Positions 4,000 through 5,326 of a DNA stretch of 9,208 bases are shown one piece after another. The notes under the pieces are model-generated. The model had not been told where the DNA came from and did not search any database. It saw only the letters and a list, made by a program, of their open reading frames with translations. The number at the start of each line of letters is the position of its first letter. The first letter of the stretch is position 1. The stretch spans positions 1 to 9,208 of the forward strand of contig JAUWQK010000039.1 of assembly GCA_030611115.1 (NCBI GenBank), given 5' to 3'. Both the position numbers and the translations under genes were made by a program. The DNA is from Deltaproteobacteria bacterium (GTDB lineage Bacteria > Desulfobacterota > Desulfobacteria > Desulfobacterales > ETH-SRB1).

Positions 4000-5326
4000 T
4001 CGTCGTTTCATCAAATAAGATCTTACCGCCGACCATGGTTAGGATTGCTTTGCCTTTCATATTCCAGCCATTGAAAGGAGTGTTCCGGCTGAGCGACTGA
4101 AATTTGCCGGAATCGATTTTATATGAAAGGTCTGGATCAATGATAGTAATGTCGGCAGGTCTTCCGGTTTTTATACCGATGTCGAGCCCCAGAATTTTTG
4201 CCGGATTTGTTGACATCTTTTCAACAAGGCCTGTTAATGAGACTACACCATCGTGAACAAGTTTTAATGATAAAGAAACAGAGGTTTCAAGCCCAATAAT
4301 ACCATTAGCCGCCTGGTCGAATTCCACCTCTTTTTCAATGTAAGAATGGGGCGCATGATCAGTCGCTATAACGTCTATAGTGCCATCTGCCAGTCCCTCC
4401 AGAATTGCTTCTCTATCCTGGCTGGAGCGCAAGGGAGGATTCATTTTCGCATTAGTATTATACCCTTTTACGGTATCTTCGGTCAGTGTAAAATAATGCG
4501 GTGCGGTTTCGGCAGTTACCTTTACTCCTCTTTTCTTTGCATTTCTTATCGCCAGTACCGATTCCTTTGTGCTGACATGGGCAATGTGGACGTAGCTTCC
4601 TGTTAGTTCGCAAAGAGCTGTATCCCGCATAATCATTATGCTTTCAGCGGCATTAGGTATTCCGGCCAGTCCCATCCTTGTTGCGACAGCACCTTCGTTA
4701 ACTACTCCATTTGCAGCAAGGTCAAGGTCTTCGCAGTGAGAGATAATAGGCATACTGAATCCCTTTGCATATTCCATAGCCCTTCGCATAAGCTGACTGT
4801 TACTCACAGGGTTGCCGTCATCAGAAAGCGCTATCGCCCCTGCTTCTTTTAATTCTCCATATTCGCACAGAGATTTTCCATTTAACCCTTTACTTATTGC
4901 AGCAACCGGATAAACTCTGACTGTATCTGCAATGGCTGCTTTTTTTAATATATATTCGGTTATCTGCCCGTTGTCGTTAACAGGATTTGTGTTCGGCATT
5001 GGGCAAATCGCGGTAAAACCGCCATGGGCAGCCGCCAGGCAGCCTGATTCTATTGTTTCTTTATATTCATGGCCCGGCTCACGCAGATGAACATGCATGT
5101 CGATAAGGCCTGGAGTAACTATTTTGCCGGAAGCATCAATAACTTTGAGTTTTGAATTTTGAATTTTGAATTTTGAATTTTGACCTTCAACCCCTGATCC
5201 CTGATCCCTGATTCCAGCTTTCCGCTCTTTTATTTCAGCTATTTTCCCATCTTTAATGAGAATATCCACAATTCCGTCTAAGTTTCCGGGATCAATGACT
5301 CTTCCGCCTTTAATCAGCACCAGCAT
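3980..5326 (-). CDS. pyrC: Dihydroorotase (class I type), with repeat-encoded insertion
   Basis: It catalyses ring closure of N-carbamoyl-L-aspartate to dihydroorotate, step three of pyrimidine synthesis, in the cytoplasm. The 448 residues show the amidohydrolase motifs: MHVHLREPG with zinc ligands H78 and H80, PMPNTNP, SDDGNP (about 168-173), ISHCED (H197), IAHVST (H250) and the catalytic Asp in ATDHAPH (D323). All key residues are present, so this is not an inactive pseudo-dihydroorotase. The ATG at 5326 is chosen because a perfect AGGAGG lies eight bases upstream and MLVLIKGGRVID is the normal family N-terminus; an upstream in-frame start at 5380 would add 18 atypical residues inside pyrB. 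The gene overlaps pyrB by 17 bp. Residues about 38-61 are an insertion encoded by two heptanucleotide arrays, between the N-terminal beta segment and VIDASGKIVTPGLID. This makes the protein about 20 residues longer than usual. Confidence 0.95.
   Translation of the reverse strand: MLVLIKGGRVIDPGNLDGIVDILIKDGKIAEIKERKAGIRDQGSGVEGQNSKFKIQNSKLKVIDASGKIVTPGLIDMHVHLREPGHEYKETIESGCLAAAHGGFTAICPMPNTNPVNDNGQITEYILKKAAIADTVRVYPVAAISKGLNGKSLCEYGELKEAGAIALSDDGNPVSNSQLMRRAMEYAKGFSMPIISHCEDLDLAANGVVNEGAVATRMGLAGIPNAAESIMIMRDTALCELTGSYVHIAHVSTKESVLAIRNAKKRGVKVTAETAPHYFTLTEDTVKGYNTNAKMNPPLRSSQDREAILEGLADGTIDVIATDHAPHSYIEKEVEFDQAANGIIGLETSVSLSLKLVHDGVVSLTGLVEKMSTNPAKILGLDIGIKTGRPADITIIDPDLSYKIDSGKFQSLSRNTPFNGWNMKGKAILTMVGGKILFDETTTLNREP
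5150..5183. repeat. TTTTGAA heptanucleotide tandem array inside pyrC
   Basis: Four perfect copies of TTTTGAA (5150-5177) plus six bases of a fifth (5178-5183), with a degenerate CTTTGAG unit before it (5143-5149). On the pyrC strand the unit is TTCAAAA. Because 7 is not a multiple of 3, translation cycles through all frames, giving Q-N-S-K-F-K-I-Q-N-S-K (residues 49-59 of PyrC). The unit has no stop codon in any phase on the coding strand, but has TGA on the other. Confidence 0.95.
5192..5212. repeat. CCCTGAT heptanucleotide tandem array inside pyrC
   Basis: Three perfect copies of CCCTGAT. On the pyrC strand the unit reads ATCAGGG, giving I-R-D-Q-G-S-G (residues 39-45). It lies nine bases from the TTTTGAA array, and both arrays are stop-free in every frame on the coding strand. 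Together they form the insertion near the N-terminus of dihydroorotase. Confidence 0.95.

Follow-up and report, generated by a model that had tools for sequence, protein, structure and literature searches.

The window, that is, the whole stretch of 9,208 nucleotides that was analysed, carries on its minus strand the genes pyrB, pyrC and lepB, a pgpA-like gene, larC and two-component genes. Two adjacent genes are of concern here:

3980..5326, minus strand: pyrC, class I dihydroorotase, 448 amino acids from the ATG at 5326 (open reading frame, TIGR00857, Foldseek)
5310..6248, minus strand: pyrB, catalytic subunit of aspartate carbamoyltransferase, directly upstream of pyrC (NF002032, 405.6 bits against a cut-off of 263)

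The start of pyrC overlaps the 3' end of pyrB. Although the mechanically derived reading frame starts at 5380, the ATG at 5326 was taken as start codon, because homologues begin there. Sequence family and fold agree on a class I dihydroorotase: TIGR00857 scored 432.6 bits (cut-off 279.05), and the best Foldseek match of the PyrC model was the Aquifex dihydroorotase 3d6n (TM 0.91/0.96). The stretches DMHVH and TDHAP, which we take to be metal-binding motifs, are conserved. The nearest named PyrC proteins bear the organism names of Desulfobacteraceae or of Pseudomonadota/Proteobacteria metagenome bacteria.

The sequence-only reading had reported two heptanucleotide arrays inside pyrC, three copies of CCCTGAT and a run of TTTTGAA. 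Both were recovered by reading the sequence and by Tandem Repeats Finder (TRF), which confirms that heptamer arrays lie inside the gene. The TTTTGAA array occupies 5150-5183 (TRF row 5144-5183, 5.7 copies, 96% matches) and the CCCTGAT array 5192-5212 (TRF, 3.0 copies, 100%); the gap between them measures 8 bases and not nine, as had been stated. On the coding strand, 5143-5212 consists of ten contiguous heptamer slots (ATCAGGG three times, GTTGAAG, GTCAAAA, TTCAAAA four times, CTCAAAG), so that the two arrays share a single register and are joined by a decayed unit:

5192..5212, minus strand: three ATCAGGG units, i.e. three CCCTGAT on the plus strand (sequence, TRF, register parse)
5185..5191, minus strand: GTTGAAG, a decayed in-register unit, 7 of the gap's 8 bases (register parse)
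5143..5184, minus strand: GTCAAAA, four TTCAAAA and CTCAAAG; six units, 42 nt, without counterpart in the pyrC of genome G014 (register parse)

The tandem units are exactly 7 nt long, as in dispersed heptanucleotide (STRR-like) repeats, and the degenerate general unit in the window's lineage is NTCRRRR. GTTGAAG is also present in G014 and occurs as GTTGAGG in G018. The TTCAAAA-type block of 42 nt, located between GTTGAAG and TTATTGAT, is extra in comparison to G014, whose pyrC is 93.7% identical outside the loop; protein P0015 is window-like with 7 loop residues fewer. The estimate of about 24 encoded residues stood insofar as the 70 bases span residues 39-62, whereas the net gain relative to 3d6n is smaller: query residues 34-59 (26) align to residues 36-42 (7), which leaves 19. 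The units are free of stops on the coding strand, whereas the other strand reads P*SLIPD and F*ILNFE, in agreement with the earlier claim. The array score of the window's loop was 32 (threshold 13); when each of 180 pyrC loops (window included) was shuffled 50 times base by base, no shuffle reached a score of 13.

Further repeats were located elsewhere in the window:

3970..4000, minus strand: GGTTCAC/GGTTCAG (plus-strand letters) heptamer array spanning the pyrC stop codon and encoding the C-terminal LNREP* (TRF)
6978-6997: GAAATTA, 2.9 copies, lepB-pgpA intergenic stretch (TRF)
7026-7047: CCAATTT, 3.1 copies, lepB-pgpA intergenic stretch (TRF)
342-379: repeat copy AGTGCCTA/TGCCTAAA
815-852: repeat copy TTTAGGCA/TAGGCACT

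In relatives, the C-terminus of PyrC likewise ends in a variable, repeat-like tail, for example VTLNLEP or TLNPEP. The gene of a four-helix-bundle protein (TIGR02436, window 403-753) is placed between inverted copies of the TTTAGGCA(CT)-type repeat, with which it may form a small mobile unit. TAGGCAC or its complement was found in 17 of the 18 period-19 arrays in 1.2 Mb of genome G026.

It had been proposed that residues 38-61 be modelled. With 49 close homologues, AlphaFold2 reached a pLDDT of only 40.8; a more diverse alignment of 76 sequences gave a mean pLDDT of 93.8 and a pTM of 0.92. The latter model contains the following element:

5150..5224, minus strand: codons 35-59, coil between the beta strands 28-34 and 60-64 (AlphaFold2 model)

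Residues 42-56 have pLDDT values below 50. According to this model, the insert is a disordered hairpin loop of an otherwise confidently predicted fold, and the loop appears to be structurally permissive; as far as disorder in the model indicates tolerance, the in-frame repeat resides at a tolerated site of a protein gene.

Of the family to which genome G001 belongs, 17 genomes were examined, and 16 gave a pyrC match. Heptamer-type DNA occupies the same loop in all 16 that hold the pyrC start; 15 of these genes are complete, and G015 contributes a 5' piece, its pyrC being distributed as two pieces over two contigs. The strict array threshold was passed by 15 of 17 family rows; the arrays of G014 and of the G015 piece are decayed. 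The main units differ from genome to genome: ATCAGGG in G018, TTCAGGG in G022, GTCAGGG in G024, CTCAAAA in G025, TTCAAAA in G021, GTCAGAA in G020 and GTCAGAG in G023. The loop of G002 shows a gradient of units from GTCGGAG (GTCRGAR) to CTCAAAG. Outside the loop, the pyrC genes of G022, G024, G025, G021, G020, G023 and G002 share 85-94% of their nucleotides. The expectation of a lineage-specific insertion therefore failed for its position, which is common to the whole family tested and to other lineages, and held for the unit sequence.

A single ancestral insertion, kept by descent and diverging through ordinary point mutation, would explain the common position throughout the family tested and the terminal units beside ATTGAT, which are similar in many family genomes. 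Point mutation alone, however, would erase the period. For 13 close pairs (flank divergence below 0.115) having loops of equal length (54 nt), the loop had diverged more than the flanks, by a factor of 1.6 to 6.3, and the period was kept. Arrays are more alike internally than between genomes: the mean unit difference per site was 0.24 within arrays and 0.32-0.39 between genomes, with flanks at 0.08-0.25. Judged from these alignments, loop divergence with a kept period is the mark of turnover and not of point mutation alone. In addition, the other units, found outside the family in roughly eight groups (see below), would require separate events or complete replacement. As a complete account, descent from one insertion is refuted and has next to no probability left; it may still describe how the site first became occupied in the family.

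An assembly or binning artefact has to be considered as well, given that most named records are metagenome assemblies and that tandem repeats assemble badly. Against this, the same site, open frame and period are found in many genomes from different studies, and P0007, a protein cluster with a heptad loop, represents 209 member sequences. We regard an artefact as practically out of the question.

Variation of length among relatives, which the sequence-only reading had advised to look for, was seen as steps of 21 nt between pyrC loops. Loops in the family measure 54, 75 or 96 nt (window: 96), with G016 (105 nt) as the single exception. At the protein level, 39 of 42 distinct heptad-type loops consist of 7k+4 residues, which corresponds to a binomial value of 8e-30 against 1/7 if kinship is ignored. 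This count comprised the window and P0001-P0070 and required at least two heptad signatures (regular expression); P0051, P0053 and P0068 are among the loops left out for having fewer. Among the 121 proteins, P0063 and P0070 were unparsed and P0077 lacks a start. Deviating lengths were found in P0035, P0036 and P0065, and P0068 (29 residues), which is outside the count, would also deviate. The loops of P0036, P0049, P0050, P0060 and P0074 contain other repeat-like peptides, for example SLPAVSLAGSE and GLKPAPT or similar ones; these are perhaps other dispersed elements that landed there.

These lengths bear on the proposal that pyrC is phase-variable, i.e. a contingency locus that is switched off and on by the gain or loss of units. 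Seven is not a multiple of three, the array lies about 115 nt past the start codon, and heptanucleotide tracts of Haemophilus influenzae mediate phase variation or have been proposed to do so, according to excerpts of PMC2651432. However, all 15 complete pyrC genes of the family translate through the array to the C-terminal stop, and 16 of 17 heptamer-bearing pyrC genes outside the family are open over at least 425 residues; for the 17th (L033), an open frame was seen only over the part between the start region and the HVH motif. The 21-nt ladder with its few exceptions likewise speaks against switching, and PyrC is a biosynthetic enzyme and not a surface antigen. No out-of-frame allele was present among the 15 complete family genes and 16 of the 17 heptamer-bearing outsiders, a sample obtained by searches which favour intact genes and from consensus assemblies, which cannot show minority alleles. 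As no frame-broken allele was seen, phase variation of pyrC is without support and we consider it very improbable.

In order to survey the site more widely, 180 loop rows were compiled, for which identical loop regions were counted once and the window was included. This sample is not random: 80 extra loops were hand-picked, mostly with higher scores, among the matches listed (221 of 291 genomes matched). Outside the 180 are ten loci without a loop according to the anchor pattern and L126, which is devoid of the 5' part. At a fixed score, a period-7 array was found in 32 of the 180 distinct loops, i.e. in 15 of 17 family rows and, among the matches listed, in 17 of 163 others. At the same score, arrays of period 4-6 and 8-12 were found in none of the 180 loops. 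In 107 distinct pyrC open frames, this loop holds 21 period-7 arrays spread over 19 genes; downstream of the loop, the frames are free of arrays of period 4-18. Arrays of period 8, 9 and 14 occur in L052, L047 and L028, where they lie 192-224 nt upstream of the HVH motif, either at the start codon or ahead of it.

Outside the family, the units include CAATCAT (L247, L248, L007), AAATCCA (L181, L230, L249), ACATCRA (L222), CCCAGYA and CGGCTCT (L243), AGCAACC (L172) and CCGAAAT (L164, L180). The pyrC loop of G044 (L196) contains two adjoining unrelated arrays, AGTGCAA and CTTCTCA, with approximately four copies each. In the loop of G194 (L248), a GC-rich stretch with the arms CCCGCC...GGCGGG is embedded in frame within CAATCAT/CAATCCG heptamers. 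A tree of the 180 rows is weak (151 columns, 75 of 177 inner branches open); the tool counts 12 state changes. Read by eye, the 17 heptamer-bearing rows outside the family would fall into about eight groups (the L181/L007 clade, L033, L196, L172, L180, L243, L164 with L222, and L250), and into about nine if the family is added.

Over 22 units, which are in part interdependent, the coding strand averages a GRAVY value of -1.25; random open heptamers average -0.32, and the resampling fraction was 0.0007. The other strand carries a stop in 10 of the 22, and only two units, CGGCTCT and CTTCTCA, are hydrophobic in coding orientation. Stops on the other strand and the hydrophilic coding strand indicate that the orientation of the arrays is filtered by stops and probably also by hydrophilicity.

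Related heptamers are not confined to pyrC. The three-unit TCARRR pattern TCARRRNTCARRRNTCARRR gave 30 matches in G001 and 178 in G002 (overlapping matches included), whereas the reversed control gave 1 and 0. In ten other genomes 0 to 11 matches were found; the reversed control ranged from 0 to 5 in all twelve. STRR repeats are dispersed over many loci, and the arrays in the relatives' genomes tested likewise occupy many loci per genome. Period 7 was the commonest period (61 arrays) in the initial 1.2 Mb of G026:C1, followed by period 8 (26 arrays). The interior of open reading frames of at least 150 residues (greedy longest frames, 84-85% coding) contained 35 arrays, 13 with period 7 and 19 with a triplet period. 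As triplet periods outnumber period 7 in these coding interiors, the restriction to heptamers is a property of the pyrC loop and not of all coding DNA. A Pfam scan covered 9 of the 11 frames with interior period-7 arrays, one of them only over its first 1098 residues, and placed several heptamer arrays of G026 between or beside domains:

MutL, residues 362-421: array flanked by a domain that ends at 325 and one that starts at 438 (Pfam)
Hybrid kinase, residues 592-601: array between 581 and 646 (Pfam)
CobB/CobQ-like protein, residues 236-260: array between 187 and 261 (Pfam)
Chemotaxis receptor tail, residues 566-585: array after a domain ending at 530 (Pfam)

In the MutL of G026 (L265:2566-4440), a heptamer array of 178 nt makes up about 60 residues of the interdomain linker; the repeat array thus resides in a gene of mismatch repair itself. 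A MutL match was obtained in 14 family genomes, two of them fragmentary; of the 12 long frames examined, the other 11 are devoid of such a linker array, although G027 keeps traces. Because this permissive linker holds an array in only one of 12 cases, permissiveness alone does not explain the constant array of pyrC.

The same comparison, one of 12 MutL linkers against a heptamer insert in 16 of 16 family genomes having the site, is an argument for a selected function of the loop peptide (partner binding, a fixed-size spacer or stability), for which heptamers would be local raw material. So is the finding that 34 of the 42 distinct heptad-type loops have exactly 18 or 25 residues. The sequence of the loop, however, is unconserved, as illustrated by QGSGIRD, QNSKFKI, QSSKLKA and QRSEVRG; five proteins with 80-84% identity (P0031, P0033, P0052, P0057, P0058) have a loop of 13 residues without heptads, and the model shows the window's loop as disordered. 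On balance, a selected peptide is an unlikely explanation, yet the one among the alternatives to which we concede most.

We also compared the units in pyrC with those elsewhere in the same genome. At least two GTCAGAR units are contained in the pyrC of G002, G013, G020, G023 and G027; four of these five genomes have GTCAGAR arrays elsewhere, G027 has none, and among the other eleven pyrC-matched genomes such arrays are found in two (G024, G026). CAATCAT gave 20, 92 and 14 matches in three genomes with this unit in pyrC (pyrC included: 4 in G249, 2 in G007), 41 in G066, which has a different unit in pyrC, and no more than one in each of the other ten. No match outside pyrC was found for ATCAGGG in G018, GTCAGGG in G024, TTCAAAA in G021 or AAATCCA in G173, draft genomes that may miss some. 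Correspondence between unit and genome is suggestive only as a sign of copying between loci.

Excerpts of two papers describe heptanucleotide repeats in cyanobacteria, Xanthomonas and Beggiatoaceae (PMC4692102, PMC4679880) and cite an earlier study according to which heptamers are the most abundant category of long repeats in most genomes examined. In coding DNA, multiples of three are said there to be the likeliest and favoured unit lengths (PMC4679880), and G-rich heptamers to be under-represented (PMC4692102). The cyanobacterial STRR sequences likewise consist of tandem units of 7 bases, several per organism (three in Calothrix), as far as the excerpt of PMC4692102 goes; the pyrC array differs in that it also lies inside an essential enzyme gene, in one loop, and in several lineages. 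The G-quadruplex heptamers GGGAATC and GGGGA(C/T)T of Xanthomonas and Nostoc and TAACTGA of Beggiatoaceae are likewise dispersed, and some heptamers of these three groups overlap stop codons in the passages at hand (PMC4692102), as does the array at 3970-4000 of the window. There, one unit is preferred per genome group, whereas closely related genomes differ in their pyrC units. Rickettsia palindromic elements (RPE) resemble the pyrC array as in-frame repeats within metabolic genes; by the portion of PMC10969869 consulted, they are about 150 bp long and, by name, palindromic, whereas the insert in pyrC is no palindromic element of this size but a 70-nt array of 7-nt tandem units. In the hmw loci of H. 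influenzae, the tandem units also have 7 bases, and AATTTTG, which forms a tract inside the hmw1a reading frame with a frame shift, is a cyclic equivalent of TTTTGAA (PMC2651432, in part). Those loci serve the switching of a promoter or of surface proteins, whereas the copy numbers in pyrC are frame-neutral and the gene encodes a biosynthetic enzyme. In open-licence PMC text, no paper was found that describes heptamer arrays in pyrC or in any protein of these bacteria. The novelty lies in the repeated occupation of a single loop of a housekeeping enzyme by heptamers only, even though seven is not divisible by three.

The view that a spreading repeat occupies a tolerated surface loop, the second possibility named by the sequence-only reading, is well supported by the dispersed related arrays in relatives, the disordered loop of the model and the 21-nt steps. 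Very probably, then, the feature in pyrC consists of dispersed, fast-turning heptanucleotide tandem repeats, which are lodged in a permissive dihydroorotase loop and turn over by whole units, frame-neutral net lengths being kept. In the mechanism that we propose, arrays would gain and lose whole 7-nt units via slippage or recombination. The origin of new units would be either mutation with subsequent local amplification, for which the gradient in G002 speaks, or copying out of dispersed arrays, for which the CAATCAT genomes speak. Unit changes other than multiples of three would break pyrC and be removed by purifying selection; arrays would persist where their net length changes by three units, equal to seven residues, and where their orientation is free of stops and mostly hydrophilic. 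Probably, the encoded peptide acts as a neutral spacer.

A more far-reaching interpretation is put forward tentatively, with somewhat less than even confidence: the pyrC loop could be a natural trap that records a genome-wide process generating heptamers. Triplet repeats would have no frame cost in the loop, yet they were found in none of the 180 loops, which argues for period 7 as a property of the mutational machinery and not of selection. Arrays would be refreshed by copying from the current units of the genome, such that dispersed non-coding DNA would overwrite a protein segment in successive species.

Intragenic repeats are expected in multiples of three; the pyrC loop shows the opposite, namely only sevens, in about nine bacterial groups. 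It separates the mutational supply, which comes in steps of seven, from selective acceptance, which comes in steps of twenty-one. The loop is therefore a read-out for why heptanucleotides dominate the long repeats of many bacteria, and it makes the question "why seven?" testable. The natural series of loop lengths and sequences within one enzyme also gives access to the birth of surface loops from non-coding repeats.
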